Positions 12,231 through 54,608 of a stretch of DNA of 64,000 nt are shown one piece after another. Within the stretch, counting starts at the first letter, position 1; each line of letters starts with the position of its first letter. The notes below the pieces were generated by a model. That model saw only the letters and a program-made list of their open reading frames with translations. It did no database searches and had not been told where the DNA came from. The translations under genes were made by a program, and so were the position numbers. This DNA comes from Poseidonocella pacifica. Its GTDB lineage: Bacteria; Pseudomonadota; Alphaproteobacteria; Rhodobacterales; Rhodobacteraceae. The DNA lies in NCBI RefSeq assembly GCF_900111875.1, contig NZ_FOJU01000003.1, positions 124,001-188,000 of the forward strand, given 5' to 3'.

Positions 12231-12250
12231 TGTATACTGATCGTATATTG
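12231..12250. promoter_or_regulatory. Candidate GntR operator in the divergent intergenic region
   Basis: The sequence TGTATACTGATCGTATATTG holds two GTATAC/GTATAT elements five bases apart. Sites with a TTGTATACAA-like core are common for FCD-type GntR regulators, and this one lies between the uptake operon and the GntR gene, about 70 bp before the regulator's start. The assignment as an operator is inference from position and motif. Confidence 0.4.
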
Positions 12251-12318
12251 CCGAACCGACCTGACGTTGGTTAGGATCAGCAAAAGCCGCAGTCGGATCG
12301 AAGGTAGAACCACGCCCC

Positions 12319-13314: not shown

Positions 13315-13315
13315 C

Positions 13316-13350
13316 AACAAAAAACCGCGATCCCGTGTGGGACCGCGGCT
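13316..13350 (-). terminator. Rho-independent terminator between carD and gntR
   Basis: A stem of ten positions with one mismatch: CCGCGATCCC (13325-13334), loop GTGT, GGGACCGCGG (13339-13348). Read leftward it is followed by a run of T residues (the A run at 13319-13324), so it terminates carD. It may also stop the GntR transcript from the other side. Confidence 0.75.
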
Positions 13351-13375
13351 TTGAACCGTACTGCAGGAGGAGAGA

Positions 13376-13882: not shown

Positions 13883-13917
13883 ACAAGCCTTCCTTGCAAG
13901 AGCATCCCCAAGACGAC

Positions 13918-13963
13918 AAAACCCTTCTACAGCGCTACCTTCTTAGGCGACTGTATGAAGGGG
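13918..13963 (-). terminator. Terminator-like hairpin downstream of fdxA
   Basis: Inverted repeat CCCTTC-TACAG (13922-13932) with CTGTA-TGAAGGG (13951-13962), with an 18-base loop and one bulged base. On the minus strand the hairpin is followed by TTTTG, as expected for termination of the fdxA transcript before carD. The long loop lowers confidence. Apart from this the 288 bp between carD and fdxA show no gene. Confidence 0.45.
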
Positions 13964-14170
13964 CTTTTGATCGATGAGGCTAGCGACCGGAGTGTGCGGC
14001 CACGGACGACATTCTCTCATTACGTTTCATGTTTACAAAGCATAACATAAAATGGGCCACAGCGGAAGCGCAGCAACCAGAGGCGTTATTTTTCACTTTG
14101 GCGACAATACACTTAGAGGCTGATCTTCGTGTCCCATACGGAGAGGCAAGTACCCCTCGCGTCGAATCAC

Positions 14171-14509
14171 TCAGCCACCTTCGCCCGGCGCTTCGGAGAA
14201 ATACTTGTCTTTCTTATCCGTTTCACCGTCGCGCGCCTCAGCTTCTGGGAGCGGATCTTTCTTGGTGACGATCACGGGCCAGTGCTCGGAGTATTTCCGA
14301 TTGAACTCGACCCAGCCCTCCATCGCAGGCTCAGTGTCAGGACGAATGGCATCGGCGGGACATTCCGGTTCACACACGCCGCAATCAATGCACTCATCCG
14401 GGTGAATGACCAGCATGTTTTCGCCCTCGTAGAAGCAATCCACAGGACAAACCTCGACGCAATCAGTGTATTTGCAGGCTATGCAGTTGTCAGTCACGAC
14501 ATAAGTCAT
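14171..14509 (-). CDS. fdxA: Ferredoxin FdxA, 7Fe-8S type
   Basis: A 112-residue bacterial ferredoxin. Two cysteine clusters are visible: [17 protein letters not shown] and [12 protein letters not shown], the pattern of one [3Fe-4S] and one [4Fe-4S] cluster. The C-terminal extension ([13 protein letters not shown]) is typical of FdxA. It is a cytoplasmic low-potential electron carrier. It follows the S4-domain gene by 47 bp on the same strand. Confidence 0.96.
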
Positions 14510-14556
14510 GGGGGCCTCTCATCCTTGTGGACTTTCAGTTAGATGAGCCCGCCTGA

Positions 14557-14934
14557 TCATTCAAGCAGGTCGGATCGTTTGAGATCAAGATTGCGTCGGT
14601 CCCGCTTTGTAGGACGTCCTTTTCCCTCATAACGCGGATTTCTTGGAGCTTCGTCCTTCACCTCGGGCGGCGTGAGATCCGTATAGAGCAGACGGGCTTC
14701 AGTCGCAGGCCCCCGCCGGTTCCCGATTGCCTCAATCCGCACGATGCGAATCCGCTCGCCCTGTAGAAACGTCAGCGTATCTCCCGCACCAATGGTCCGC
14801 GATGGCTTTAGCGCATGCTGTCCGTCTACACGAACATGCCCCCCGGAAATCACCTTGGCGGCGAGAGCGCGGCTCTTGAAAAACCGCGCCCACCAGAGCC
14901 ATTTGTCGAGTCGAACTAGCGGTCGCGGCTCCAA
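14557..14934 (-). CDS. S4-domain RNA-binding protein (HslR-like)
   Basis: A 125-residue protein with an S4 RNA-binding domain at about residues 6-65 (RLDKWLWWARFFKSRALAAKVI) and a basic tail (KGRPTKRDRRNLDLKR). HslR-like proteins bind stalled 50S subunits carrying peptidyl-tRNA. The start is taken as TTG at 14934, which lies four bases after the helicase stop, so it is probably translated by coupling. The basic C-terminal tail may add RNA affinity. Confidence 0.85.
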   Translation of the reverse strand: MEPRPLVRLDKWLWWARFFKSRALAAKVISGGHVRVDGQHALKPSRTIGAGDTLTFLQGERIRIVRIEAIGNRRGPATEARLLYTDLTPPEVKDEAPRNPRYEGKGRPTKRDRRNLDLKRSDLLE

Positions 14935-14938
14935 GCAA

Positions 14939-17854: not shown

Positions 17855-17880
17855 TGGGAACGATCCTGTATCGCGGGCCT

Positions 17881-18480
17881 TCAGAGTTCGAACTCACCGG
17901 GGACGCGCCCGATCCGTTCACGGATGGTGGTTAGATCCTTGAAGTGGGGATGTATAGTGCCGAGGCGATCAAACGTCTCGTGAGCTTCGGGAAGCCGGTT
18001 CAACTCAAGCTGAATTCCCCCCAAAAGCATGATCGCTACAAAATCGCGTGGCTCACGCGCAAGAGCCGTTCCAAGATCCTGCAATGCAGGCCCCATGAGT
18101 CCCGAGGCGTAATAGGCCTGCGCCCGCAGGCTGTAACTAAGCGGATATTTGGGGGCGTGATCGATCGCAGCGGTCAGATGCTCCACCGCGGCGGCAAGAT
18201 CCCCTTCTTCCAGCGCGTCGCGCCCCCTCTCGACGAGCAGATCGACCGCCGCCGAACCACTCAGCGACCAAATCCGCATAATGCGGCGCTCTATTATTGG
18301 GGCCTCTTGCGGTTCCGCATTGGCGAGATCGTCAAAGAGCGCGTCCAAGACTTCGCCGCTCTCAACATCCGCCCGATCCTGCAAGTTCCCAGCCTGTTGG
18401 GCAAACCCCGCATGAGACGTTGCGGCACAAACCGCAAATGCGATGAACAGGGGTTTGAGCTTGCGGGTCACTTTGGTCAT
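17881..18480 (-). CDS. Secreted tetratricopeptide-repeat protein
   Basis: A 199-residue protein with an N-terminal signal peptide (LKPLFIAFAVCAATSHAGFAQ) and TPR-like repeats at about residues 80-185 (ALEEGDLAAAVEHLTAAIDHAPKYPLSY and two further units). Periplasmic TPR proteins usually scaffold other proteins; no enzyme motif is present. It sits 26 bp upstream of the helicase gene on the same strand and is divergent from the SCP2 gene. Confidence 0.85.
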   Translation of the reverse strand: MTKVTRKLKPLFIAFAVCAATSHAGFAQQAGNLQDRADVESGEVLDALFDDLANAEPQEAPIIERRIMRIWSLSGSAAVDLLVERGRDALEEGDLAAAVEHLTAAIDHAPKYPLSYSLRAQAYYASGLMGPALQDLGTALAREPRDFVAIMLLGGIQLELNRLPEAHETFDRLGTIHPHFKDLTTIRERIGRVPGEFEL

Positions 18481-18551
18481 GGTAGCACTGAGTGTAACGC
18501 CCCGAACCGGAAAAGCGAGAGGGGCCTCACAAATGTGAAGGGAAGGGATCC

Positions 18552-18842
18552 ATGAGCGATGTAATCGATGCGGCAGTGACCGCGCTCAAGGCGAAAATGG
18601 ACGGCGAGCAGTTTGACGGCTCCGCCAAATTCGTCATCAAGGACGAAGGCGCGATCATCATTGACGGTGCGGGTGTACGGGCCGGCGACGATGAGACCGA
18701 AGTGACCCTGACCGCAGATGCAGAAACATTTCGCGCGATCCTCGACGGTGACATGAATCCCACGACGGCCTTCATGTCGGGGAAACTCGCTGTTGACGGC
18801 GACATGGGCACCGCGATGCGGCTCGGCAGCGCGCTGAGCTGA
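18552..18842 (+). CDS. SCP2 sterol-binding domain protein
   Basis: A 96-residue single-domain protein of the SCP2 lipid-carrier family (KFVIKDEGAIIIDG, then FMSGKLAVDGDMGTAMRLG near the end). SCP2 proteins bind acyl chains, acyl-CoA or sterol-like lipids in a hydrophobic tunnel. GAAGG precedes the ATG. It is followed two bases later by the lipase-like gene, so the two are probably co-translated and may share a lipid substrate. Confidence 0.93.
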   Translation: MSDVIDAAVTALKAKMDGEQFDGSAKFVIKDEGAIIIDGAGVRAGDDETEVTLTADAETFRAILDGDMNPTTAFMSGKLAVDGDMGTAMRLGSALS

Positions 18843-18844
18843 TT

Positions 18845-19780
18845 TTGGACGGGGCTCCCTACTTCACCGATATTACCCAAGGGCCGGACATTGTGTCCTG
18901 TGCTTGGGCCCAAGGCGCGGACGGCGTGCGCATTCGAGTTGCGCTTTTCCCCGTCGATCACGCCCATGGTACGGTTTTGCTGTTCACGGGGCGCACTGAA
19001 TATATCGAGAAATATGGACCGCTTGCACGTGATCTAGCAGGTCGCGGATTTGCCATGGCGACCTGCGACTGGCGCGGTCAGGGGCTCTCCGACAGGGCGC
19101 TTGACGAAAAGCGGACCGGCCATGTGATGCGGTTCTCCGATTACCAGATTGACGCCGACGCGCTGCTAAAAGCGGCGCAGGACGCCGGATTGCCTGAACC
19201 GTACTTTCTTATAGGGCATTCGATGGGTGGCTGTATTGGCTTGCGCTCGCTTGTCGCGGGATACCCTGTCAGCGCTGTAGCCTTCTCCGCCCCCATGTGG
19301 GGCATCGGGATGGCCGGATATCTGCGTCCTTTTGCATGGACCTTGTCGTTCCTGAGCCGCTTTGTGAATCGTAGCCATGTCTTCGCGCCGGGCACGACTG
19401 GAACGCCCTATCCCGAAGCTGCGCCTTTCGAAGACAATCAACTGACCACCGATGCTGAACAATATGCATGGATGAAGAACCAGACCGAGATGCATCCGGA
19501 GCTCGCTCTTGGCGGTCCGAGTCTCAACTGGCTCTACGAAGGAATGCTGGAAACCCGGGCTTTGGCGCGCCTACCCTCGCCGGATGTTCCTTGCCTGACG
19601 CTTTTGGGCGGCAACGAGCGGATCGTGGACACGGACCGCATCCATGAGCGTATGCAGATCTGGCCAGATGGGGCGCTCGAAATCGTCCCCGGCGGCGAGC
19701 ATGAAGTGCTGATGGAGCGCCCCCCGCTGCGAGAGCGCGCTATCGAACGCATCACTGGATTCTTCGACACGCACCTCTAA
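18845..19780 (+). CDS. Alpha/beta hydrolase, lysophospholipase/monoacylglycerol-lipase type
   Basis: A 311-residue alpha/beta hydrolase. The nucleophile elbow GHSMGG lies near residue 125, an oxyanion-type segment is LLFTGRTEYIEKYG, a distal aspartate is in ERIVDTDRI and the histidine is in GGEHEVLME. It resembles PldB/monoglyceride lipases. The start is a TTG at 18845, two bases after the SCP2 stop. No signal peptide is seen. Coupling to SCP2 suggests intracellular lipid turnover. Confidence 0.9.
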   Translation: MDGAPYFTDITQGPDIVSCAWAQGADGVRIRVALFPVDHAHGTVLLFTGRTEYIEKYGPLARDLAGRGFAMATCDWRGQGLSDRALDEKRTGHVMRFSDYQIDADALLKAAQDAGLPEPYFLIGHSMGGCIGLRSLVAGYPVSAVAFSAPMWGIGMAGYLRPFAWTLSFLSRFVNRSHVFAPGTTGTPYPEAAPFEDNQLTTDAEQYAWMKNQTEMHPELALGGPSLNWLYEGMLETRALARLPSPDVPCLTLLGGNERIVDTDRIHERMQIWPDGALEIVPGGEHEVLMERPPLRERAIERITGFFDTHL

Positions 19781-19788
19781 ACGAGGCC

Positions 19789-20385
19789 TCAGTCCTCCGC
19801 CTCTCCGTAGGTCTTCAGCAGGCTTCCCTGCGCCATGAAAAATACGAACAGCGCGGCGGTCAGCCCGAACGTCTTGAAGTAAACCCACGCTTCTGTGGAC
19901 ATGGTGCGCCATACCACTTCGTTAGCCACAGCCAACCCAAAGAAAAACAAAGCTATGCGCCGGGTCAGGATCATCCATCCCTCATGCGCAAGCGGCATGA
20001 CATCGTCCATCACCGTGCGCAGATAACTCTGCCCGCGGAACAGCCCGAAACCCAGAATCCCTGCGAAAAGCAAATAGATCATCGTGGGCTTCATCTTGAA
20101 GAAGCGTTCATCGTTGAGCCAGACGGAGAGGCCGCCAAACACGACCACCAACACGACGGTGGCGATCTGCATCCTGCTAAGCTTTCCCGTCAGCTTCCAC
20201 AAAACCAATGTGGAGGCCACCAAGAGCGGTATAAAGCCAGCCGTCACTACGATGAAGCCGTCGTAATCACGCCCCGCGATGTTGAACACCCGATCCTTGA
20301 GCAGAAGATAGGCCGCAAAGAATATGACGATGGGGCCCATTTCGAGCGCCGTCTTCAGCAGCGGGTTGATGTGCTTGTCGTTCAT
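19789..20385 (-). CDS. yciB: Inner membrane septation protein A family (YciB)
   Basis: A 198-residue integral membrane protein with five to six hydrophobic segments and the family's N-terminal pattern (PLLKTALEMGPIVIFFAAYL) and C-terminal NEVVWR segment. YciB proteins affect cell-envelope integrity and septation. The ATG at 20385 is preceded by CGGAG; a GTG six bases upstream is an alternative. The DMT-family transporter gene lies just upstream on the same strand. Confidence 0.92.
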   Translation of the reverse strand: MNDKHINPLLKTALEMGPIVIFFAAYLLLKDRVFNIAGRDYDGFIVVTAGFIPLLVASTLVLWKLTGKLSRMQIATVVLVVVFGGLSVWLNDERFFKMKPTMIYLLFAGILGFGLFRGQSYLRTVMDDVMPLAHEGWMILTRRIALFFFGLAVANEVVWRTMSTEAWVYFKTFGLTAALFVFFMAQGSLLKTYGEAED

Positions 20386-39614: not shown

Positions 39615-39691
<77 letters not shown>

Positions 39692-39750
39692 AATTGCACA
39701 AATATCTCAAATACTTCTAAAATATCAAAGCTTTGCGCTTGCCGACCCCT

Positions 39751-39769
39751 ACACAGCGGTCCTACACAG
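39751..39769 (+). repeat. Left arm-type repeat pair (TACACA x2)
   Basis: TACACAGCGGTCCTACACA: two TACACA units 13 bp apart, about 60 bp inside attL and just before the integrase start. The same arrangement (16 of 20 bases including one flank) recurs at 48791-48809 near attR. I infer integrase arm-binding sites. Confidence 0.55.
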
Positions 39770-39780
39770 TGACCCTGAAG

Positions 39781-41298
39781 ATGCCTAGTCCCTACAAAGA
39801 CCCTCTCAGCGGAATCTTTTACCTGAATGTCCGCGTTCCCACCGATTTGGTCGGAAAAATTGGTCGTAGGAAGATTCTCAAATCACTACGCACAAGAGAC
39901 CCCTCGGAGGCCAAGCAGCGGTTTTCTAAGGAGTATGCGACATTGCAGAAGCAATGGACGGCATTGCGCGCCGGACCGAAGCCCCTCCCCCACAAGCAAC
40001 TTGTCGCGCTTTCAGGACGCATCTACTCAAATCTGATGGATATCCTCGAGGACGAGCCGGGAGAGGCTGAGATATGGCACCAAGTCCTGCGCCTGAGTCA
40101 ACAAGCCGAGGCTGCTGTAAACGGGTTTGAGCAGTGGTACGGCGACGCTGCAGACCAACTTCTTGCAGAAGAAGGGATTGTGCCTGACCGCAGGAGCAGA
40201 GAGCGGCTACTCCGCGAAGTACATAACGCGTGGACGCAAGCAGCAGAACAACAGCTAAAACGCGCCGGAGGCGATTATTCCGAAGACCCAGCGGCCACCC
40301 GATTTCCGAAATGGAAGAGTGAGGAGCAGGCGCGAAATACCAATGAACGCCCGACACTGACGGCACTCTTCGAGCGCTGGAGAAATGACCATCTCAGCGA
40401 AGGGAAGTCAGCTAAAACCATCACAGACTTTTCGCAGAAACTTCAGAGCTTGAAAACGTATCTCGGCCACGAAGACGTCGCGCGCATGACCAACAAGGAA
40501 ATCTCTGAATGGTGCCAATACCTGCGCGATGAGAAGGGTCTCGCATCTAAAACAGTCAGCAGGAAATACCTAGCGGCGGTTCGAGCAATCCTAAGACATG
40601 GCCAAGCGAACTTCCTTATCACAACGAACCCTACGGAGGGCGTCGTCGTGAAGGTGGCAAAGAGAATAATAACCCGCCCGAAGGGTTTCACTGACGAAGA
40701 AACGAAGAAAATCCTCTTGGCTTCCTTGGCTGCACTAGAGCAAAACTCGAAGGTAAGCAAATACAACAGGCTTGCCCGACGGTGGTTGCCGTGGATTTGC
40801 GCCTACACTGGCGCGAGGGGCGGTGAAATTGCCCAACTTCGCAAGCAGGATTTGTCTTGGGAGGATGAAATTCCGTGGCTGACCATTACTCCGGAGGCGG
40901 GGACCGTCAAGTCCAGGCAATTTAGAACTGTACCGGTCCATCCTCATTTGCAGGAACTCGGCCTGACAAAGTTTATCAGCGATGCGCCAATGGGATATCT
41001 ATTCCATTCAGGCGCTCAGAATCTCGAACAAGCAATAGCCTTCTCGAGCAATGTGCGGGACAAAATCGCTAGTTGGGTCCGACACGAAGTTGGCGTCACA
41101 GATAACCGAATACAGCCAAACCATGCTTGGCGACACCGCTTCAAGACCCTTGGGCGCAACCACGCTATCGGTCTCGAATACCTCGACGCGCTTCAAGGCC
41201 ACACAGGTAAGGGTGCCAGCGAAGATTACGGAGAGTATTCCATCCGGGCACTGTACCGTGAAATATGTAAACTTCCACGGGTCGAGCTATATGACTAG
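39781..41298 (+). CDS. Tyrosine-type site-specific integrase
   Basis: A 505-residue tyrosine recombinase with an N-terminal DUF6538-like domain (SGIFYLNVRVPTDLVGKIGRRKI), a core-binding SAM-like domain at about residues 200-290 and a C-terminal catalytic domain. Visible catalytic residues are Arg346 (TGARGGE), His448-x2-Arg451 (HAWRHRF) and Tyr483, nine residues after the histidine of GH. ATG 39781 is chosen over an upstream TTG because the arm-type repeats lie in between. It recombines the tRNA-Thr site with the element. Confidence 0.95.
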   Translation: MPSPYKDPLSGIFYLNVRVPTDLVGKIGRRKILKSLRTRDPSEAKQRFSKEYATLQKQWTALRAGPKPLPHKQLVALSGRIYSNLMDILEDEPGEAEIWHQVLRLSQQAEAAVNGFEQWYGDAADQLLAEEGIVPDRRSRERLLREVHNAWTQAAEQQLKRAGGDYSEDPAATRFPKWKSEEQARNTNERPTLTALFERWRNDHLSEGKSAKTITDFSQKLQSLKTYLGHEDVARMTNKEISEWCQYLRDEKGLASKTVSRKYLAAVRAILRHGQANFLITTNPTEGVVVKVAKRIITRPKGFTDEETKKILLASLAALEQNSKVSKYNRLARRWLPWICAYTGARGGEIAQLRKQDLSWEDEIPWLTITPEAGTVKSRQFRTVPVHPHLQELGLTKFISDAPMGYLFHSGAQNLEQAIAFSSNVRDKIASWVRHEVGVTDNRIQPNHAWRHRFKTLGRNHAIGLEYLDALQGHTGKGASEDYGEYSIRALYREICKLPRVELYD

Positions 41299-41555
41299 AA
41301 GACAACTGAAGACGACCCAAGGTGAAGCTTCCAGTGAGACCGCAAAGCTTTGTTAATGCCATCTAGGAGCGCGCCGAAGCCCAGCGCCTTGGGCATAACA
41401 GGCAATTCCGAGCCGAAGAGAACGGCCTCAATCTCCACCGTCCGCATCGTGGGATAATAATAAAATTTTGAGGTTCTTGGGCAGCCGGGACAGAAAATGA
41501 GCTTGGTAGGCAAGATGCCCATATCGATCATTTGCCCTACAACCAAATTGTACAT
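41295..41555 (-). CDS. Doubtful 86-residue reading frame after the integrase
   Basis: An open frame with ILPTKLIFCPGCPRTSK near the start and a plausible amino-acid mix, convergent with and touching the integrase stop. It has no ribosome-binding site and I recognise no family. Between the integrase and the thermonuclease-like gene (41299-41931) nothing better is visible, so this stretch is best treated as spacer or decayed sequence. Confidence 0.2.
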   Translation of the reverse strand: MYNLVVGQMIDMGILPTKLIFCPGCPRTSKFYYYPTMRTVEIEAVLFGSELPVMPKALGFGALLDGINKALRSHWKLHLGSSSVVF

Positions 41556-41931
41556 GACGGCATCTGAAAACTTGGCTCAATGAGTAGTGGCATCCAAAGC
41601 GTTCGCCCCTCCCCTCTCCCAAACTCAAAGGAATACGATGAAGCGCTTTTCCATCGTATCGAAATCATGTTTGGGAGGCTTAGGGACTGGCGGCATGTGG
41701 CTACCCGTACGAGAGATAGCCCAAGGTGTGGCTGACGGCAATCGCGCTCGCAGCAACCGTGGGTCTATTGCGTGTAAGTCCATACCCTAGCACCACCATG
41801 TTTGCGGAACCGCCATACTTGGCGGTACACTCTTGCTAACTTTGTCACCGCACCCGCGTCGCCCCTCTCTATTATCTGGTACTTGGGGATGGCATACTGC
41901 AAATCTAACTACCGATTTCGGATGGCCCGCT

Positions 41932-42354
41932 TCAACAATACCCAGCTCTCTGTATCCGTGATCGTGCCGCTCTTGTCTCAAGGCCTCCGTACCGCCCCCC
42001 AGAGTATCTAGGGCAATCCAAAGCCTGCCCCTCGGCGATGGCCATGGCCCCTATGTCCTTGCCTTCCAGGTAGCAAACACCAACCCATCGGTCATAGGTG
42101 CGCTCGCCATTCAGCTCACAGGTAATCCTCTTCCCGCCAACAAGCCTTTGCATAAAGAAGGTGGCTTCACGCCCCGCTGGGGTGCTTCTCTCAGGGCCAT
42201 CTACCCCATTGAGCCTCACAGGCGTCCCGGCAACGACGATGGTGTCTACGTCTCTAACCTTGGTCACACGTCCCTCAATTACCTGAACAGAAATCCCGGC
42301 GCTGGGTAAAATTAGAAGCGCGGCAATGCTGAGGCGGATGAAGGCTTTGGACAT
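41932..42354 (-). CDS. Secreted thermonuclease-like (SNase-fold) protein
   Basis: A 140-residue protein with a signal peptide (FIRLSIAALLILPSAG) and a staphylococcal nuclease-like domain: EGRVTKVRDVDTIVVAG, VRLNGVDGPE and DRWVGVCYLEGKDIGAMAI. These align with the family's metal aspartate, Arg-x-x-x-x-D-x-P-E and D-R segments, so activity is plausible though the second arginine region is not canonical. ATG 42354 has AAGGAT; an upstream ATG is less likely. It would act outside the cytoplasm on DNA or RNA. Confidence 0.8.
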   Translation of the reverse strand: MSKAFIRLSIAALLILPSAGISVQVIEGRVTKVRDVDTIVVAGTPVRLNGVDGPERSTPAGREATFFMQRLVGGKRITCELNGERTYDRWVGVCYLEGKDIGAMAIAEGQALDCPRYSGGRYGGLETRAARSRIQRAGYC

Positions 42355-42450
42355 AGTAATCCTTAGTTTTCCACATGGCGCGAATAGGATGTCGCGCATG
42401 CACAACATGGTCCGTGTTTACTGAGCGACTAGGACACCTACTTCTACCCC

Positions 42451-42633
42451 ATGCGAACGAGCGAGCAACGCAAACATTTCGCTGACGTTGCAAAATCGGC
42501 CGAGAAAGCCCTGCCGATAGCGGCCAGTCGTCGACTGCTTAAGATACTACGACCGCATCCCGCTTCGCGGATATTGGCCCCTGTGATCAGCGCTACTATC
42601 ACCTACAGGCGATCAGTGAGGTATCTGGATTGA
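42451..42633 (+). other. Small reading frame, possibly frameshifted remnant
   Basis: A 60-codon frame (MRTSEQRKHFADVAKSAEKA at the start) whose first half looks protein-like. Past about 42535 a different frame on the same strand looks more protein-like (RFADIGPCDQRYYHLQAIS). This is what a frameshifted gene would show. It directly precedes the interrupted gene at 42629-42895. No family assigned. Confidence 0.25.
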
Positions 42634-42895
42634 ACGCAAACCCAACCTTGTCATTTCCAGCAACTCGCAGCACACCGTTGAGGATGAAGTGCCATTCAAA
42701 GTGGATATCTACAAACTCTCACGCAGGGACGGTTGGTCACTGAGAGTTGCGACCGAAGACGGGTAGTCCATTGTCTGGGACGATCTTTTTGAAGACCACC
42801 GAGCGGCAGTTGAAGAGGCAATCGGCACCATGCGCGGTGAAGGCGCGCTTGCTCTTACCTACGGTAGTTCAAACGTCGTTCCACTTAGGCAGTAG
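42629..42895 (+). pseudogene. Small gene interrupted by an in-frame TAG
   Basis: An 88-codon frame reads IERKPNLVISSNSQHTVEDE onward to VDIYKLSRRDGWSLRVATEDG, then TAG at 42764-42766, then SIVWDDLFEDHRAAVEEAI to SSNVVPLRQ and a normal TAG. The two halves join seamlessly into one small acidic protein of a kind I have seen as hypothetical proteins in Rhodobacterales. There is no ATG at the start, so the first codons may also be lost. Confidence 0.6.
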
Positions 42896-43087
42896 GCGAA
42901 CGGGCTGCAACGAGCCGAGCATTTGAAAGACTTCGCTTGGTGCCACGCGGCTTTTCGGAAGCAGCCGTTCGTGCCGATCTTGAGAAACTATTGTGACGAC
43001 CGCTCCTCGATGAATGTCGTCGAGATGACTTGACGACACGACTTTCTCAACCCACGGTGGCTACATTGCGCGATAAGGTTTGTCTCA

Positions 43088-43669
43088 ATGAGCGTCCGTA
43101 GATGGGCTTTAGTCCTTGGCGTCGCTTGGGTAGGTTTGGCCACCATAGGCACAGACGATTCAGAAAGAACACAAGCAAAGCCAATTGCACCCTCTAAAGT
43201 CAATCCGCCAAGGGTTGCAGAGACGCCTGTCAAACCGATGTGGGAAAAACTGACTGCCCCGAACCCCGAGAGTTACAGGACCCTCTATGTAACAGGCTCG
43301 GTTGTGAATGTCCGACGCGGCCCAAGTACCGCCTACGCTAGACTATTCCAGCTACGCAAAGGTCAAGCTGTCAAAGAACTAGAGACAAAAGAAGGCTGGA
43401 CAAAACTGTCTTCAGATAGCCGTTCGGGGTGGATGTCGGCAAAGTACCTAAGCCCTAGCAAGCCCATCGCCGCAGCTGCAAAGCCATCGACAAAACGGGC
43501 ACCTCAATGTCACCCCAATTACTCGGGTGCATGTGTACCAATCGCTAGCGATGTTGATTGCGCCGGCGGACGCGGGGACGGCCCTGCATATGTGCGCGGC
43601 CCCGTTCGGGTCGTTGGTAGAGACGTATATCGCTTGGATCGCGATAGGGATGGGATAGGTTGCGAATAG
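43088..43669 (+). CDS. Bacterial SH3 domain protein with Excalibur-like C-terminus
   Basis: A 193-residue protein with an N-terminal hydrophobic segment (WALVLGVAWVGLATIG, signal or anchor). A bacterial SH3 domain follows at about residues 66-122 (SVVNVRRGPSTAYARLFQLRKGQ). The C-terminal 55 residues are cysteine-rich: CHPNYSGACVPIASDVDCAGG, then YRLDRDRDGIGCE. That C-terminal unit is often found with secreted thermonuclease domains, and a thermonuclease-like gene is indeed 730 bp away on the other strand. The protein probably binds calcium and cell-wall material at the envelope. Confidence 0.82.
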   Translation: MSVRRWALVLGVAWVGLATIGTDDSERTQAKPIAPSKVNPPRVAETPVKPMWEKLTAPNPESYRTLYVTGSVVNVRRGPSTAYARLFQLRKGQAVKELETKEGWTKLSSDSRSGWMSAKYLSPSKPIAAAAKPSTKRAPQCHPNYSGACVPIASDVDCAGGRGDGPAYVRGPVRVVGRDVYRLDRDRDGIGCE

Positions 43670-44063
43670 AATGCGGAGGAAAGAACTATCACACTAAAGC
43701 TACATTTTCGCCCACGTCTTTCGCGGCTCTAACCAGGCATTCGGCGTCTTCAAGCCTCGCCCCAGTAGCGGCGCTTGTTGCCCACTGCAGCATTAATGTG
43801 ACTTCGAACGCGACAACGAGGGCAAGGCCAACATCATTACCTGTGAACCGAAGCGCTACTTACTCAGCAAGAAATTATTTAGCCGAATGTGATAGTCCAA
43901 TAAGTATTGTCTACACGCTGGAACACGTGATGCACGTCAAAGATTTTGCCAGACCAGACGGGTCTGACAGGAAGCTTTTGGTGAGAAATTTATTGCAAGT
44001 ATTATCTAAACAATCTTTAATCAAGCAGCAATCAACGATGCGCATAAAAAAATAGGCCTAAAA
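43670..44063. other. Spacer before the EVE gene, no confident gene
   Basis: This 394-bp stretch has an open plus-strand frame of 131 codons overlapping the end of the SH3 gene, without ribosome-binding site and with composition typical of chance. A minus-strand frame ending near 43690 (ARLEDAECLVRAAKDVGE) looks like the C-terminus of a truncated protein. Neither can be supported. The last 100 bases are AT-rich and may hold the promoter of the next gene. Confidence 0.3.
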
Positions 44064-45224
44064 TTGACCACATGGATTTTTCAGTGCAACCCAGATCATT
44101 ACGACATCGATGGGCTGCTAGCATCCGAAACACGGGATATTCTATTTGCTGCAAATCAACAAGCTTCACTTATGCGCCCGGACGACACTGTGTACATTTG
44201 GCGCTCACAAGGAAAACAAAAAACTGTTGCCGGTATTGTCGCCAAAGGTCACCTTCTTGACACCGCGAGCATCCGACCTGATTCTGAGCCTGGCAAGCTG
44301 TTCTGGGTAGATGAAACACTCGCGAATTCCAATGAGCCGCGTGTCCGCCTACGCATCGATGACGTTGCTAATAAACGGGAAGTTATCCACCGTGCATGGA
44401 TGATCACCGATCCAATATTGAGCGATCTGACGATACTTAAAATGGCGAATATGTCCAACTATGTGGTTGAAGGCGTGCACCTCGATCGCATCGGCGATCT
44501 TTGGGAAAGAACGGGCGTCAGTTGGTCTCGAGCTGAAAGCATTGCGGCACTGAGGGCTTATCATCAAACCTATGGTGGAAGCTTATCCCAGAAACCTGGT
44601 TCCCCGGTCGCTGACACCGCATCGCTGATTGGGCGCGCAGTTAAAGGTGTTTACAATAAGGTACTAAACTTCAGACACATTGACCCCCGCGATGTGAGGG
44701 AGGGTTTCTCTGGTGCAGGCGCGGTTGATCGTAAAGTCTGGGATGAGTTCTACGAACCATTAACTAAGGAAATCGACGCTGAAGCGCTGGAGCGCGAGTT
44801 CCTAAGACTCTGGCGCAGTTCTACCGCTAAACTAAGCAACGCACCTACTTCTTCTGATCAGCCAAGCACTTATCGACCAGGACCGCCCCCCCAGGGTGGA
44901 GATTATTTCGTTACGCACACAGCACATGAGCATTGGTTCGTCTACATTTTAGAACTTAACAACAAGAAGGCGCTAAAGGTCGGCATGTCACATGAACCAA
45001 AAAATCGACTTAGGCATTATAATCATACCATCATGCCAGAACTTACTGGCTTAAAATGGACACTAGCTTTTACTCATAGATTTGACGATGCTGATCATGC
45101 GTTGTCAGTAGAGCAAGTGGTTCTTCAATCCTTCGCCAAACACCAATTGCCAAGCAACGGCGAAATTCTAATGGGAGTAGACGCGATATCAGTTCAATTG
45201 GCGATCATTAATGCTTTAAATTAG
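44064..45224 (+). CDS. EVE domain - GIY-YIG nuclease fusion protein
   Basis: A 386-residue two-domain protein. The N-terminal 150 residues are an EVE/PUA-like domain (TTWIFQCNPDHYDIDG, DDTVYIWRSQGKQKTVAGI), a fold that binds modified DNA bases. The C-terminal part from about residue 290 is a T5orf172-type GIY-YIG nuclease: Y294 in FVYILE, ALKVGM at 303-308, and Arg in NRLRHYN. Between them lies an unassigned helical linker. The start is TTG at 44064. GC content is well below the neighbours. The architecture is that of a type IV, modification-dependent restriction enzyme; a phage-defence role is inference. Confidence 0.82.
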   Translation: MTTWIFQCNPDHYDIDGLLASETRDILFAANQQASLMRPDDTVYIWRSQGKQKTVAGIVAKGHLLDTASIRPDSEPGKLFWVDETLANSNEPRVRLRIDDVANKREVIHRAWMITDPILSDLTILKMANMSNYVVEGVHLDRIGDLWERTGVSWSRAESIAALRAYHQTYGGSLSQKPGSPVADTASLIGRAVKGVYNKVLNFRHIDPRDVREGFSGAGAVDRKVWDEFYEPLTKEIDAEALEREFLRLWRSSTAKLSNAPTSSDQPSTYRPGPPPQGGDYFVTHTAHEHWFVYILELNNKKALKVGMSHEPKNRLRHYNHTIMPELTGLKWTLAFTHRFDDADHALSVEQVVLQSFAKHQLPSNGEILMGVDAISVQLAIINALN

Positions 45225-45330
45225 AGAATGTCTCTACGCACTCATCTACCGCCCCCCATGTCTAACGGTTCATTCAACTTAGCACCCGCCGCGGACAGGC
45301 CCTCTCCATTCTTTTCACGAAGGTCTTCGT

Positions 45331-45367
<37 letters not shown>

Positions 45368-45700
45368 ATTAAACCACCTTAACGAATGACAACAATGCTT
45401 GCGTAGCTGGTCCACAAGGTTTGCGAGCATACTCCAAAAATATGCGAACACGGGGGTGTTCAAGAGCTACTTCGTGTTTCTCTGGGTGGAGAAATAGTAC
45501 CTACGGCAATAAGTGTATCGGTTCCGGGTCGATGCCATTTCGTCGCGAAAATCCGTCTCCCTGAGATAGGTATAGCGTCTCGCGAAATCCCCCCCTGGGG
45601 GGCACCCTCTGTCGATCACCTTCTCAATTTGCGGGACCCCTTGCCTAAAAATTTTATACAGACACACGCCTCCGACCTCACGATGAAATCAAAGTGCCCT

Positions 45701-45807
45701 TTCCCACTAGACCTTGGTTGTGCGGGAATACGTTGGGCCAGTGAAAACCTTCCCACATAAATGGGTTTGACATTTTGGGAAAAAATTCCCACAATGTCTA
45801 AGAGATC
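45701..45807 (+). promoter_or_regulatory. Serine recombinase promoter with palindrome and TTCCCAC boxes
   Basis: TTGACA at 45767-45772 and CACAAT at 45790-45795 are spaced by exactly 17 bases. Between them lies the palindrome TGGGAAAAAATTCCCA (45776-45791). TTCCCAC occurs three times in direct orientation (45701, 45750, 45786), with an inverted GTGCGGGAA at 45720-45728. The layout suggests a repressor-controlled promoter, or subsites for the recombinase itself. Confidence 0.6.
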
Positions 45808-45824
45808 ATTTGGAAGGACCCACA

Positions 45825-46373
45825 ATGCTTATCGGTTATGCTCGTACCTCAACCTTGGACCAGAAGGCAGGACTAGAAGCACAGCGACGCGACCTCACTT
45901 CTGCGAGGTGTGAGAAGATTTTCGAGGAACAAGTTTCTTCAGTGAATGTGGAACAGCGGGTAAAGTTGGATGCCGCGATAGATTTCTGCCGTGCGGGCGA
46001 CGTTCTGGTAGTCACTAAGCTGGACCGTCTGGCGCGCTCAGTGGCCCACCTCGTTACCATCACTGAAACCCTCGCAGAGAAAGGCGTGGCCCTCCGCATC
46101 CTTGACGGGGCGATTGATACGGGCACCCCGAACGGTCGCCTGATGTTGAACATGCTGGCCAGTATCGCGCAGTTCGAGCGGGAGATCATGCTTGAACGGC
46201 AGCGGGAGGGCATCGCCAAGGCGAAGGCAGATGGCAAGTATAAAGGGCGTAAGGCCACTGCGATGGCCAGAGCCGACGAAGTTAAGAAGCTGGCTGATGA
46301 AGGCATGCCGTCTCTCAAGATCGCGGAGACACTCGGCATTGGGAAGTCTAGCGTCTATCGCATCTTGCGCTAG
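45825..46373 (+). CDS. Serine recombinase, resolvase/invertase family
   Basis: A 182-residue small serine recombinase. The catalytic serine is Ser9 in IGYARTSTLDQ; the core also shows VVTKLDRLARS, NGRLMLNMLASIAQFEREI and the arginines of ERQREGIAKAKADGKYKG. The C-terminal helix-turn-helix reads SLKIAETLGIGKSSVYRIL. ATG 45825 has GGAAGGA. It could resolve dimers of the element or invert a segment; no obvious inversion partner site was found. Confidence 0.95.
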   Translation: MLIGYARTSTLDQKAGLEAQRRDLTSARCEKIFEEQVSSVNVEQRVKLDAAIDFCRAGDVLVVTKLDRLARSVAHLVTITETLAEKGVALRILDGAIDTGTPNGRLMLNMLASIAQFEREIMLERQREGIAKAKADGKYKGRKATAMARADEVKKLADEGMPSLKIAETLGIGKSSVYRILR

Positions 46374-46954
46374 GAGGAGGGAGAATGAAGCACGTCACTG
46401 ACGTTGCAACTTGCACGTCATAACCGTGGAGGAGCACTTATTGGGTAATTCCGCGATCTTTCTGAGGGTCGCCCGATTGTGACATGCGACGATGATTTTT
46501 CGTCTGGGTGAAAGTGAATAACATACCGCCCCATCGCCTGAGACTTTCTAAACGCGATCAACAGTCTTCTCACCCCTAAGGCTGACTGTCTGCAGTTTGC
46601 TAGAAATTGCCCAGCAGGAAGCCCACGCGGCCCTCGGAGGCCATGCTGGGTTTGGCTCTTTAGCGGCCTTCGAGAGACCGCATGTAGACCATTCAGAACC
46701 GTTCGATCAATTATCCCCCAACAATGCCTTTAACAGGCGTTCCATTCCTCTGGGAGTAGCCGACGAAGTTGCCGCTCTAGCTGGCGGTGCATTTCGTCTC
46801 AGGCGCATTCCTCCAGGATGGCATGTCAACACTTCCAAGCTTGCCATGAACTGACACACCGTAGCTCCGTGAGTGCCAACCGCGCGAGCAAGGCAGGGCA
46901 TATCCGTGCTTCAGATAGTGCTGGATCGCCCCCACTCCAAAAGGACCAGATCAC
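46374..46954. other. Spacer between recombinase and zinc-finger gene
   Basis: No confident gene in 580 bp. An 85-codon plus-strand frame at 46597-46854 lacks a clear ribosome-binding site and any recognised motif. AAGGA before 46955 serves the next gene. Confidence 0.4.
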
Positions 46955-47719
46955 ATGCCCACCTCAGTAGAACCGGCTGGTGCCCCCAGCGCGGACCAAA
47001 AGTGCTGTTCTCGATGCGGCGAACGTTTTGAGCCGAGCCGAAAAGACCAGAAATATTGCCACTCCAACTGCCGAAAAGCTGCAACGAGAAATGCAAAGCG
47101 CGGTGACAGGTCAAAGGAGAACAAGGCCATGAATCAACGGCACTGTGCTATCGCCGCTCACCTCAGTGCGTCCCTTTACGGTGCACCGCCAAGCGAGCGG
47201 CTCGGAGTCATGAAACGCATTCTAGACTGCGCCACTGAACAGGAAGTCGGCTTCCGGGGGGCATACCTAGATGATCGTTGTGATGAAGGCCGACCCACCG
47301 CCCCTCGCATCTGGAAGACCTCGCCCGCTGATCTTCGCCGCGTGTTGACCGACCCAAAGCTTCTAGCGGCCAGCCCTACGGAAGCTAACCTGTTCCATCG
47401 CAATGCGCCCGGCTCCTACATGACGATAAGCCAAGCTGCCAACGCATACACACAAAAGTTCTTCGGTGTTTCCCTGCGCACCTACCTTCAACAAACGCGT
47501 ATCGGCACCCTCAGGGAAGAACATCCGGTGAGCCATTCCACTGCTCTTGGCGCTGTGCCGCGTCTCTCCAATTTCAGGAAGGTGAAGTGCTGGCACCGAC
47601 CTCTCTGCAACAAGAGGGCTGTGGTTTCGGCCTCCCAGTTCAAGGCAGACGCTGACTACGTAGACACCATAGTCGAGGCTGTTCGAGCCAAAGTAGAACC
47701 CCTTGCGACAGCAGCCTAA
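46955..47719 (+). CDS. Island protein with N-terminal zinc finger
   Basis: A 254-residue protein I cannot assign. Residues 17-39 hold a C-x2-C...C-x3-C finger (CCSRCGERFEPSRKDQKYC, then HSNCRK), followed by a basic region (ATRNAKRGDRSKENK), suggesting nucleic-acid binding. The rest is mixed and contains TISQAANAYTQKFFGVSLRTYL, which could be a second helix-turn-helix-like unit. It is on the same strand as the recombinase and RNase HI, with long spacers on both sides. Confidence 0.7.
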   Translation: MPTSVEPAGAPSADQKCCSRCGERFEPSRKDQKYCHSNCRKAATRNAKRGDRSKENKAMNQRHCAIAAHLSASLYGAPPSERLGVMKRILDCATEQEVGFRGAYLDDRCDEGRPTAPRIWKTSPADLRRVLTDPKLLAASPTEANLFHRNAPGSYMTISQAANAYTQKFFGVSLRTYLQQTRIGTLREEHPVSHSTALGAVPRLSNFRKVKCWHRPLCNKRAVVSASQFKADADYVDTIVEAVRAKVEPLATAA

Positions 47720-48165
47720 AACGTCCCTCCGTATATATAATAGGGAACCTTTAGGGTGCGTCGGCTTCGCCTCCTTCACAAGAAGAAGGCTTTTAGTCTC
47801 GAACCTTCAGGTGGAACCAGCTTCGCTACTCGCTTCTGAATGGGCACCTGCGACATGGCTGACACATTGCCGCTGATAGCGGCGAAGACCATAACCTCCG
47901 TGGTCACCTTAAGTTCTCCCTTTACACGGCAAAGCCGCTTTGGGTCTCCAAGGGCGAAGACCTACACCTGAGTGCCCATACCGAAAGCGCCACCCGCTTT
48001 CAGCAGGTCCTCCATCAAACTCCCCGTCAGCTTCATCCCACCCCTCGCAACCTTCGCCGACGACTGCATGGCGGGGCTGTTCCGTCGCGAACACCTCTCC
48101 CTGACGGTCGGGAGCTTTCAAGCTCAACTCCTCAACCCAAATAAAATCCTCAAGGAAAATCCCCA
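47720..48165. other. Spacer before rnhA
   Basis: A 446-bp stretch. TATATATAATAGG at 47731-47743 could be a promoter -10 region. A GTG-started frame at 47972-48178 overlaps the rnhA start and has no recognised motif, so it is not called. No other feature seen. Confidence 0.4.
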
Positions 48166-48645
48166 ATGCCTAACATAGAAATCACCATCCACACCGACGG
48201 CTCCTGCATTGGCAACCCCGGTCCCGGCGGCTATGCCGCTGTTCTGCGCAGACTCGAAGACGGCAGCGAAATCAAGAAACGCATAGTCTCAGGCTGTAAC
48301 GTTGAGACGACGAACAACCGAATGGAACTTATGGCGGCAGTTGAAGGACTGAAAGCGCTCAGGGCTGACGAGACAGCTAGGATAACCATCCTGTCGGACA
48401 GTCAGTACCTCGTCAATGGAATGACCAAGTGGCTCCCAAAATGGCAGGCGTCAGGCTGGCGCAAGGCAGGCGGAAAGCCCGTTGGTAACTCTGACCTTTG
48501 GCACCACCTAATTGCCGCCTCCTCAAGCCATGACGTTCGCTGGGTGTGGGTGCGCGGCCATAGGGGCAATCACCAGAACAAAGAGGCCGATAGGCTCGCA
48601 TCCAGTCAGGCGCATAATGCCAATGCCCGTGCCTTCCGCCGCTAA
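48166..48645 (+). CDS. rnhA: Ribonuclease HI
   Basis: A 159-residue RNase HI that cleaves RNA in RNA-DNA hybrids. All four metal-binding residues are visible: Asp11 (TDGSCIGNPGPGGYA), Glu54 (NRMELMAAVEGL), Asp78 (SDSQYLVNGM) and Asp142 (NKEADRLA), with the GHRGNHQN loop. AAGGAAAA precedes the ATG. Being on a mobile element it is probably an extra copy rather than the chromosomal rnhA; a hairpin follows it. Confidence 0.95.
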   Translation: MPNIEITIHTDGSCIGNPGPGGYAAVLRRLEDGSEIKKRIVSGCNVETTNNRMELMAAVEGLKALRADETARITILSDSQYLVNGMTKWLPKWQASGWRKAGGKPVGNSDLWHHLIAASSSHDVRWVWVRGHRGNHQNKEADRLASSQAHNANARAFRR

Positions 48646-52464: not shown

Positions 52465-52493
52465 TTGCGAAAAGTCGCCTTTTTTGCTATACT
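52465..52493 (+). promoter_or_regulatory. Sigma-70-type promoter of the peptidase module
   Basis: TTGCGA (52465-52470) and TATACT (52488-52493) are spaced by 17 bases. Transcription would start near 52500, leaving a leader of about 180 bases before the preferred ATG at 52680. An open frame runs through the leader but has no ribosome-binding site. Confidence 0.6.
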
Positions 52494-52679
52494 CAGAGTT
52501 GCATCGGGAAGATGCGACAAACTTTATTTTTGATGACGAAACGCGCGCCGGATACTGGCGCGAACCTGGACGAAAAGCCAAGATTCGATGTGCCGCAAGG
52601 CCCTGATCCGCGAGGAGGCGGGGGATGCCGTTCGGCCCGCAATCGGCTTTTCGTCCACCAATTGATAGGAGCGCCCGAA

Positions 52680-53795
52680 ATGGCCGAACCCCTTGATCTC
52701 AAACAGCTCTCAACCGAATTAAAAGATGCCGGACAACCATGGGAAATGGACGAACGCACGTCCATGGCCATGCTCACCGAAAATGAGCGCCGGATCCGTC
52801 TTGGCTTCAACCCTCCGCCGGGCGCGCCCACATTGGATGAGGCGGTGGCGATGGACAAAGCCGCGCCCCCGGTGACCAGTGCAGTCATCGCAGCGGAGAG
52901 CGGGCTTACTGCGCCTGCTTCTTTTGACCATCGGAACGTCGGCGGAAAGAATTTCACGACACCGGTCAAGAATCAGGGCAGTTGCGGCTCCTGCGTGGCA
53001 CACGGCGTTGCTGCGGTGATGGAAACGACCTACCGGCGCTCTCAGAACAACCCGAACCTCGATCTGGATCTGTCCGAAGCGCATCTCTTCTACTGCCACG
53101 GCGGCGAAGAGGGCCGGACCTGCGCCAATGGGTGGTTCCCGGATGCCGCGCTCGACAAGTGCAAGGACAAGGGCATCACGCTTGAAAGCGTCTACCCCTA
53201 TTCGGGCAGCCAGCAGGCCTGCGCCGTGCCGAACGGCTGGGAAGGCAATATGGCCCGTGTCACCGGACGCTCCAAACTCAACGGGCGCGCCGCGATCAAG
53301 GAGTGGATCGCCCAAAAGGGTTCAGTCACCGGATGCTTCATCGTTTATCAGGATTTCTTCTCCTATCGGTCCGGCGTTTACAAGCATGTCTCGGGCAATC
53401 AGGCGGGCGGTCACTGCGTTGAGATCATCGGTTACAACGACGCCCAAGGCTGCTGGATCTGCAAGAATAGCTGGGGTCCCAACTGGGGCGAAGGCGGCTT
53501 CTTCCGGATCGCCTATGGCCAGTGCCAGATCGACACGTGGTACGGGCCTTATGGCGCCAACGGCGTAACGCTCAAGAGCTGGGCCAACAACGTGAAGGTC
53601 AACGGCCTCTGGACCAACGAAAGCTCGCGCAATGCTTGGGCCCATATCGCTGGCACCGGTTGGAAAAAACTCACCACGGCGTCTGATGTGCAGCAACATG
53701 CCATGCTCGCCGAGTTGATCGGAGCCAAGGCCGGAGACCGCAGTGTGCGTGCCCTCATCGACGGCAACCAGATCAAGGAGGTCTATGTGACCTGA
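52680..53795 (+). CDS. C1A papain-like cysteine peptidase with C-terminal accessory domain
   Basis: A 371-residue peptidase. Residues 1-80 form a propeptide-like region (ENERRIRLGFNPPPGAPTL). The papain core has Gln99 and Cys105 in KNQGSCGSCVAHG, His245 in GGHCVEIIGYN and Asn263 in CKNSWGPNWGEGGF, so all catalytic residues are present. Residues 291-371 are an extra domain (WTNESSRNAWAHIAGTGWKKL) repeated in the next gene. ATG 52680 has AGGAG; no signal peptide is present even if the frame is extended upstream, so it is cytosolic or secreted by an unrecognised route. Papain-like enzymes are uncommon in bacteria. Confidence 0.92.
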   Translation: MAEPLDLKQLSTELKDAGQPWEMDERTSMAMLTENERRIRLGFNPPPGAPTLDEAVAMDKAAPPVTSAVIAAESGLTAPASFDHRNVGGKNFTTPVKNQGSCGSCVAHGVAAVMETTYRRSQNNPNLDLDLSEAHLFYCHGGEEGRTCANGWFPDAALDKCKDKGITLESVYPYSGSQQACAVPNGWEGNMARVTGRSKLNGRAAIKEWIAQKGSVTGCFIVYQDFFSYRSGVYKHVSGNQAGGHCVEIIGYNDAQGCWICKNSWGPNWGEGGFFRIAYGQCQIDTWYGPYGANGVTLKSWANNVKVNGLWTNESSRNAWAHIAGTGWKKLTTASDVQQHAMLAELIGAKAGDRSVRALIDGNQIKEVYVT

Positions 53796-53869
53796 TCTGC
53801 GATAGCATTTGCGGCCGGGCCGCGCAGGCTCGGCAGGATTTGATTGTATAGTAACGAAGGATTGTTTTC

Positions 53870-54298
53870 ATGCCCAGATCAACCACGAAAGACGCCCCCA
53901 CCGACACTGCTGAAAGTGTCCGGGCGGAGACGATGAAAAGCGCCTCGGAAGGCGCACCGAAATTGGATGTGGCATCGCTTCTCGGAGATATTCGTACCGA
54001 AGAGGTGCGCGATACCCAGCCCATGATGACCCCACCAAGCGAGCCCGCGGTCGAGGTACAGGCCGAAGGCATCACTGCATGGCACAACGGCAAGAAGATT
54101 ACCGCGATGTGGGCCAATAGTGCCTCGCGCAATTCCTATGCGGCCGTGGCGGGGTTGGGATGGCGCAAGCTGTCCAACGCCAACGACAGCACTTACCTGT
54201 CCATGGTGATGATGGCGAGCCATGCCGAGCAGACCAATTCGACGGTGAACCTCGAGATCAGCGCAAGCAATGAGATCACTCAGATCTATGTCTGGTGA
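53870..54298 (+). CDS. Stand-alone copy of the peptidase accessory domain
   Basis: A 142-residue protein. Residues 1-60 are polar and probably disordered. Residues 62-142 match the C-terminal domain of the adjacent peptidase: W-x-N-x2-SRN-x3-A-x-AG-x-GW-+-KL, then a helix and an N-x-I-x2-(I/V)YV end. No enzyme motif and no signal peptide are present. It could dimerise with the peptidase, act as decoy or target, or be a structural subunit. GAAGGA precedes the ATG. The stop overlaps the inhibitor gene by 11 bases. Confidence 0.85.
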   Translation: MPRSTTKDAPTDTAESVRAETMKSASEGAPKLDVASLLGDIRTEEVRDTQPMMTPPSEPAVEVQAEGITAWHNGKKITAMWANSASRNSYAAVAGLGWRKLSNANDSTYLSMVMMASHAEQTNSTVNLEISASNEITQIYVW

Positions 54299-54608
54299 CA
54301 CCATCGAGCTCGGATTGGAGGACGGCGGCCGAAAGGTCGTCGTCCGACCCGGATCGGAAATCCTCCTCCGCCTTCCGGAAAATCCGACGACGGGCTATCG
54401 GTGGAGCGCTCCTACGGATGCGGGCATCGAGCTTCTGAGCGATGGCTATGCAAAGGAAATGGGTGCGCCCGGCGCCGGCACTGAGCGTATCTTTCGTCTT
54501 CGCGTCAACGAGATGCCCCCCAAGGATCTCAACCTCATCCGCAAGCAGGAGTGGGAACCGGAGAGTACGCCGGACGCCTCTTTTGTCCTGAGGTTGTCGC
54601 CGGATTGA
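54288..54608 (+). CDS. Chagasin-family (I42) cysteine peptidase inhibitor
   Basis: A 106-residue inhibitor of papain-like peptidases. The family loops are visible: ENPTTGYRW at 31-39 (NPTTG loop), GAPGAGTERIFRL at 59-71 (the GxGG loop, here degenerate) and NLIRKQEW ending at Trp89 (the RPW loop). Unlike many chagasins it has no signal peptide, matching a cytosolic peptidase. ATG 54288 lies inside the previous gene, so translation is probably coupled. It is the expected brake on the peptidase two genes upstream. Confidence 0.88.
   Translation: MSGDTIELGLEDGGRKVVVRPGSEILLRLPENPTTGYRWSAPTDAGIELLSDGYAKEMGAPGAGTERIFRLRVNEMPPKDLNLIRKQEWEPESTPDASFVLRLSPD

Follow-up and report, generated by a model that had tools for sequence, protein, structure and literature searches.

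Several bacterial systems pair a peptidase gene with an adjacent gene for the peptidase's own protein inhibitor, which guards the producing cell. Staphopain-staphostatin, SpeB-Spi and Isp1-IPI are of this kind, and IPI is described in PMC3901451 as an inhibitor of this sort. Here we describe a three-gene module of Poseidonocella pacifica that lies in a 64,000-nucleotide (nt) stretch of its genome (contig NZ_FOJU01000003.1, positions 124,001 to 188,000), which we call the window. At 52680-54608, the window encodes a C1A papain-like peptidase, a 142-amino-acid (aa) partner and an I42 chagasin-type inhibitor. Chagasin (I42) proteins inhibit C1A peptidases. The peptidase and the partner share a C-terminal domain, for which we use the name D. 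As in operons of the staphopain-staphostatin type, the inhibitor gene adjoins the peptidase gene, with I42 present at 48 of the 51 loci where a C1 domain and D occur in one peptidase. Unlike in those operons, the inhibitor is chagasin-type, and the C-terminal domain of the peptidase occurs a second time in the product of a third gene. Staphopain-type peptidases are secreted by means of a signal peptide, whereas the C1A peptidase of the window has no leader. The trio may represent a weapon or switch, built on a self-protected protease, of a kind not described before.

Other described systems resemble the module in part. The eukaryotic cathepsin B / chagasin pair has the same zymogen architecture and inhibitor family, but the module is prokaryotic, its genes are side by side, and it adds D and the partner. 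The A and B chains of AB5 toxins carry Sec signal peptides. Subtilase and metzincin A subunits are known among these toxins, in SubAB and EcxAB, according to the available part of PMC9120245. The module shares with these protease-type toxins a peptidase and a predicted OB-fold of B-subunit shape, a likeness at the level of fold only. It differs in that its peptidase and partner show no hydrophobic leader (by eye and hydropathy), in that one D is fused to the papain-like enzyme whereas the A chain is separate and has no B domain, and in having an inhibitor gene. To our knowledge, no peptidase is linked to CipA or CipB, the crystalline inclusion proteins of Photorhabdus. Like the module's partner with its tail, these are small proteins in which an N-terminal arm precedes the fold that D is modelled to have, but no sequence similarity to them was seen when the D profile was compared with PDB sequences (E up to 10). 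The available part of the CipA paper notes CipA's own similarity to LT-IIb B and describes the N-terminal arm, then three strands, a helix and two strands, and a tetramer with a helix bundle (PMC9530169). Tox-PL peptidases of polymorphic toxin systems also have a papain fold; some have an immunity partner, and they are tied to named secretion systems (PMC3482391). The word chagasin does not occur in PMC10380794 and PMC10318531, nor in the available part of PMC3482391. We found no description of the module in titles and abstracts of the open PMC literature on chagasins, papain-family evolution, toxins of extracellular contractile injection systems (eCIS), AB5 toxins and polymorphic toxins.

The trio recurs across bacteria and archaea

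We searched the window genome and 100 relatives and found peptidase matches in 6/101. Only the window genome and one of another genus (G010, locus L003) matched over the whole peptidase, the G010 enzyme being 77% identical to the window's; the other four matched in the C1 part or in D only. The G010 partner gene (L003 about 2670-3091) reads in two frames against its homologues, which reflects either a frameshift or a sequencing error. Seven plasmid records matched the peptidase, one of them, from Deinococcus aetherius, at full length and with all three genes in an unchanged order. On this Deinococcus plasmid (L009 9889-16870), two caspase-family genes separated by a hypothetical gene lie after the module.

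Scanning one genome per species, we obtained 524 confirmed loci, ranked with a D-bearing query. By record titles, the hosts of the best 80 of these span many bacterial phyla and archaea, many of them metagenome-assembled genomes (MAGs). We laid out these 80 together with the window, G010, Deinococcus and Streptomyces loci (84 in total), using profiles iterated from seeds. C1 and D lie in one frame at 51/84 loci, and such peptidases do not regularly lack both partners: a stand-alone D is present at 49/51 and I42 at 48/51. This supports the self-contained unit of the original prediction, in which the peptidase comes with a domain-sharing partner and a chagasin dedicated to it, and because the trio recurs in other phyla we take the arrangement to be more than chance. 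In the 48 complete modules I42 always lies beyond the partner; two of them (L015, L018) have it on the opposite strand. The three incomplete C1+D loci end at contig ends (L028, L032) or make up a short contig (L067), and in the genome of L028 a partner and I42 were found together on another contig. Among loci without D, 21/33 have I42 within the locus.

Beyond these three, we found no gene that keeps a fixed position in the loci. The next most frequent neighbours, delimited with a simple greedy gene caller, form clusters that span 9 loci each at scattered offsets and resemble sigma factors and ABC transporters, whereas the remaining clusters look like synteny of near relatives. Five modules have a D-less C1 peptidase gene directly upstream (L030 6962-7900, L038 7026-7844, L040 7025-7843, L054 7010-7828 and L066 7025-7843).

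D itself is rare and nearly tied to the module. In a search of 741 genomes, strong matches were found in 1 of 349 Pseudomonadota, 3 of 145 Nostoc-class and 1 of 247 Niastella-class genomes. Three of these five genomes are the query genomes themselves. In all five, D occurs exactly twice, once in a frame of peptidase size and once in a short frame. G525 and G598, new genomes from the evenly drawn sample of 145, each carry the whole trio. Weak D matches in G349, G409 and G804 were set aside as chance, being one substrate-binding-like open reading frame (ORF) and two ORFs antisense to longer ones. The module is scattered among bacteria and archaea and appears to be compact and self-inhibited.

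An intact catalytic set, a predicted pro-region and an overlapping inhibitor gene

The features of the module are collected in Table 1. The window peptidase matches Pfam Peptidase_C1 (PF00112) above the cut-off (E 2e-43), and its intact Gln-Cys-His-Asn set is identical in 31/31 aligned peptidases, the window's included. We placed its start at the ATG at 52680 because homologues keep the same start. The full-length AlphaFold2 (AF2) model, built from 29 sequences (pLDDT 91.6, pTM 0.88), aligns best with procathepsin-type chains. The 25 best rows begin at residue 1-6 with Z 27.4-30.6, and the top zymogen alignment has Z 30.6 and a root-mean-square deviation (rmsd) of 2.6 over 265. The chagasin-cathepsin B structures 3cbk and 3cbj are also among the structural matches. 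The N-terminal 76 residues are thus modelled as a cathepsin-type pro-region, which makes the peptidase a predicted zymogen, a property that had gone unnoticed in the original prediction.

The inhibitor matches Pfam Inhibitor_I42 (PF09394) with 50.9 bits against a cut-off of 27.2 (E 2e-13). Its NPTTG loop occurs in exact form in 27/48 module inhibitors, and a relaxed pattern fits 45/48. As had been read from the sequence earlier, the inhibitor gene starts inside the partner gene, an overlap of 11 nt with the stop codon included. The peptidase and partner genes are 74 nt apart and are presumed to be co-transcribed. The single promoter that had been assigned to the three genes survives as a consensus match and no further; 3 promoter-like sites were found in the region against 0.9 expected.

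Table 1. Features of the peptidase-partner-inhibitor module (window coordinates)
Feature	Position	Strand	Basis
Sigma-70-like promoter match, consensus only	52465-52493	+	TTGCGA-17-TATACT, 9/12
C1A papain-like peptidase gene, 371 aa	52680-53795	+	ATG at 52680 chosen from homologues' conserved N-terminus
Predicted pro-region, zymogen-type, residues 1-76	52680-52907	+	AF2 block pLDDT 71-94; procathepsin-type alignment
C1A catalytic domain, residues 79-285, with Q99, C105, H245, N263	52914-53534	+	PF00112 E 2e-43
Peptidase D domain, C-terminal, residues 295-371, predicted OB-fold	53562-53792	+	D profile, model secondary structure, clade apart from that of partner D
Partner gene, 142 aa: disordered-looking tail and stand-alone D	53870-54298	+	
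Partner tail, residues 1-63, Ala/Pro/Ser/Thr-rich	53870-54058	+	
Stand-alone D of partner, residues 64-142, predicted OB-fold of AB5-B / CipA type	54059-54295	+	AF2 model
Chagasin-type (I42) inhibitor gene, 106 aa	54288-54608	+	PF09394 E 2e-13; PDB 2wgn E 3e-9
NPTTG loop of inhibitor	54381-54395	+	sequence

Read by eye, none of the three window proteins has a visible signal peptide, as stated in the original prediction. Across the C1+D peptidases, hydropathy and inspection found no leader before the conserved start in 49/51, with L025 ambiguous and L077 truncated. Most of the 69 inhibitors likewise look leaderless by eye. The exceptions, also by eye, are lipoprotein-like in L020 and L063, membrane-anchored-like in L071 and secreted-like in L021. 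Five Niastella/Longitalea-type loci (L042, L045, L050, L051, L053) have a hydrophobic stretch upstream of an inhibitor whose start is uncertain. The earlier description as cytosolic should therefore be taken with caution: the peptidase has no leader, but a few species have inhibitors that look exported or anchored, and 4/7 scanned sister peptidases without D have extra domains (see below).

D is modelled as an OB-fold close to AB5 B subunits and CipA

Residues 294-370 of the peptidase align with the partner at 36% identity (E 1.8e-8) and a single profile finds both, in agreement with the earlier view of the partner as a stand-alone copy of the peptidase's extra domain. The partner has no Pfam match, and none of the three window proteins matches NCBIfam. 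Pfam searches with 34 D members returned two weak single matches only (E 0.014 and 0.021). The AF2 model of D, built from 31 sequences, is confident (pLDDT 92.8, pTM 0.80) and has the order strand-strand-strand-helix-strand-strand. Its 11 best PDB rows are all AB5-toxin B subunits, with Z 10.1-11.6 (VIA); the first is LT-IIb B (Z 11.6, rmsd 3.8 over 79). The best Foldseek match, also to AB5 B subunits, has E 9.5e-4 and TMq 0.79. The next structural matches are CipA (7xhs; Z 10.0, rmsd 1.8 over 72), residues 20-92 of pro-protein-glutaminase (3a54; Z 10.0, rmsd 2.0 over 71) and, after these, SilF (Z 9.8, rmsd 1.4 over 64). Compared with viral models, the D model had no match at E 0.001. As modelled, D is an OB-fold nearest to AB5-toxin B subunits and then to CipA, which the original prediction had not recognized. 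The likeness is one of common fold, and a fold match does not prove kinship or function.

The partner tail before D has 43-86 residues, is rich in Ala, Pro, Ser and Thr, and contains 1.7% aromatics (46 homologues, counted after excluding partners without an ATG-started tail of at least 30 residues). A PxLxPP-type motif occurs in 32/46 tails, where shuffled sequences average 1.5 and reach at most 5. Within the D helix (positions 45-56), residues are mostly hydrophobic or Ala at 10/12 positions in partners and at 8/12 in peptidases. Partners mostly have hydrophobic residues at positions 48, 51 and 52, where those of peptidases are often polar; at position 50 it is the other way round.

Fused and free D appear to have been inherited as a pair

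We compared the genes of the 48 complete modules after reduction to 39 at 85% identity. Fused and free D form two clean clades (0/78 leaves misplaced, support 1.0). Pairwise distances correlate in all six gene pairs (Mantel p <=0.0005 each), and the two D copies give the highest value (r 0.78, against 0.52-0.67 for the others). The two clades and the correlated distances point to one old duplication of D, with the pair kept since, although shared descent alone can give such a distance correlation too. One small domain is tightly retained in the module in two forms, fused and free, that vary together.

The copy in a Methanoculleus isolate is 74-75% identical to copies in two bacterial MAGs. Given this likeness between an archaeal isolate and bacteria, horizontal transfer of the module is likely. 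Such spread fits the frequent horizontal transfer of prokaryotic C1A peptidases described in the available part of PMC10380794. In the window, G010, L012 and L013, the module is flanked by a shared transporter-like gene on one side and YebC on the other, so it looks resident within that group. We also considered a phage or virus origin and did not retain it: pattern-based scans of viral contigs (P0001, A1, P0013), whose reach is close relatives only, found no relative. Phage records gave no match for the partner or for an astacin-like protein described below, and one weak C1-only match for the peptidase.

Domain sharing outside the trio

In G001, a genome of the window's genus, a D-like domain forms the end of an astacin-like peptidase (L105 8533-9894, minus strand; L006), after which comes a stand-alone D of 73 aa. 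The two copies match each other at E 8.8e-8 and the D profile at E 1e-6 and 7e-17. A YbaY-like protein is encoded further on in G001 (by eye). On a Pararhizobium gei plasmid (L125 3501-4762), an annotated YbaY-family lipoprotein gene directly precedes an M12 metallopeptidase. A YbaY-family protein beside an M12 or astacin-like peptidase is possibly a partner of the protease.

Domains other than D also extend these peptidases. Seven sister peptidases without D were scanned; 4 carry PKD, DUF346 repeats, DUF5648 or MIR/PASTA, and 3 have only C1. Extra domains of the PKD, DUF346, DUF5648 and MIR/PASTA types are usually extracellular. Among 27 loci searched, 3 have a C-terminal extension that is repeated in a neighbour gene: archaeal L071 (8856-9567, E 6e-25) and L075 (8883-9522, E 4e-20), and Odoribacter L070 (6085-9833, E 1e-77). 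This count excludes the 6/33 loci with extensions of <40 residues and a weak match in L086 (E 0.03). Because these other extensions are repeated in neighbour genes as well, the principle of one fused and one free copy is wider than D. One archaeal extension (A6) was tried as a D on account of a strand-helix pattern that looks similar by eye and was rejected, as the profile comparison was not significant. On a Streptomyces canus plasmid (L010 3670-7108), an I42 gene comes after the gene for a protein of 1023 aa whose C-terminal domain is C1; D is absent.

A proposed self-protected protease cassette and its alternatives

We propose, tentatively and with slightly less than even confidence, that the module is a self-protected protease cassette composed of a zymogen, free D copies and a cognate chagasin, whose peptidase, once released or activated, digests proteins of other cells. 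Gene 1 would encode a cathepsin-B-type zymogen with a pro-region, a C1A domain and a C-terminal D, and gene 2 would supply free D domains on a flexible tail. Fused and free D may co-assemble, probably into a ring or bundle that holds one or a few peptidases and that would store or deliver the enzyme. The chagasin of gene 3 would plug the active site in the producer, or in the envelope where the inhibitor is exported. The producer would thereby be immune, and the released or activated peptidase could digest proteins of other cells. The role is probably toxin-immunity, and we favor one outside the producer's cytosol because some inhibitors look exported and sister enzymes carry extra domains. 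A bolder version is possible but doubtful: a papain-like zymogen in a mixed ring or bundle of AB5-B/CipA-like domains, guarded by chagasin and moving horizontally in bacteria and archaea, with the scaffold reused by an astacin-like protease and many prokaryotic chagasins being immunity proteins. If D assembles like AB5 B subunits or CipA, a papain-like protease would be tied to that scaffold, a link that we did not find in the open literature. With the module, bacterial and archaeal chagasins gain a concrete partner, which makes their role testable.

Several observations weigh against the self-protected cassette and its bolder version. The peptidase has no leader, no secretion gene was recognized as linked to the module, and most inhibitors look cytosolic, which is compatible with an internal switch too. 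OB-folds are common, non-toxin proteins follow close behind the AB5 B subunits (Z 10.0), and a fold match says nothing on function. Searched against PDB sequences with E values up to 10, the D profile found no match, CipA included. The residue pattern of the D helix hints no more than weakly at different packing or at partner self-association. The astacin-D combination was seen once, in 1/198 genomes of the family, and 0/18 plasmid relatives cover the full D. L067 has three D copies and no I42. The ranking of loci depended on a query that contains D, and many hosts are MAGs, in which binning can err.

Rather unlikely, in our view, is an intracellular proteolytic switch of the toxin-antitoxin or abortive-infection type, in which infection or stress leads to loss or displacement of the inhibitor, the cell itself is killed or arrested, and D senses or sequesters. 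The leaderless peptidases (49/51), the mostly cytosolic look of the inhibitors, the overlap of inhibitor and partner genes, the patchy, transferable distribution and the two caspase-family genes after the Deinococcus module would all suit such a switch. Yet no PADLOC family was found at E 0.01 for the three window proteins, no fourth gene occupies a fixed place, the pattern scans of viral contigs, with a reach limited to close relatives, yielded no relative, and the inhibitor is apparently exported in a few species. The toxin-antitoxin or abortive-infection role, one of the possibilities named in the original prediction, has thus gained no positive evidence. Improbable, too, is CipA-like storage, with D inclusions in the cytosol parking an inactive digestive peptidase until lysis. 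CipA matches D in structure; its N-terminal arm and its strand-helix order resemble the partner layout, and it forms tetramers by way of its helices (PMC9530169). The D profile found no similar PDB sequence, however, and a dedicated inhibitor suggests danger rather than storage alone.

The pro-domain of protein-glutaminase sits near the active site of a papain-like enzyme. Its structural match to D (3a54) raises the prospect that the partner is a trans-acting pro-domain or regulator, with D near the active site as in protein-glutaminase. We consider this quite improbable, as the peptidase already has a predicted cathepsin-type pro-region in cis and an inhibitor in trans, and D also accompanies an astacin-like peptidase. 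A role for the module peptidase as an eCIS effector is the most remote of these alternatives. It looked suggestive at first, with the Pvc16_N family (PF14065) in 10/24 module genomes or records (a sample mixed with respect to D) against 9/101 in the window genome and its relatives, and with an eCIS-like locus in the window's own genome. Class-matched backgrounds are high (52/145 in the Nostoc class, 16/149 in the Niastella order), neither of the evenly drawn module genomes G525 and G598 carries PF14065 (0/2), and the genes are unlinked: in 9/10 carriers no PF14065 match shares a contig with the peptidase, and in the tenth the two are 291 kb apart. These results weaken the link and do not support it. 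The self-protected cassette remains the reading that we prefer.

Other features of the window and its genome

The eCIS-like locus of the window genome (L104, G000:C9:855000-874900, about 5826-19899) contains sheath-like and tube-like genes (by eye) and Pvc16_N (PF14065). Two proteins upstream in this locus have a CxCGGGCPxC motif, and its contig differs from that of the module. Within the window, a stretch of lower G+C at 39615-48200 lies beside tRNA-Thr and contains genes that resemble those of an integrase (39733-41298) and a resolvase (45810-46373), all read by eye. This stretch is likely an integrated element that ends before the module.

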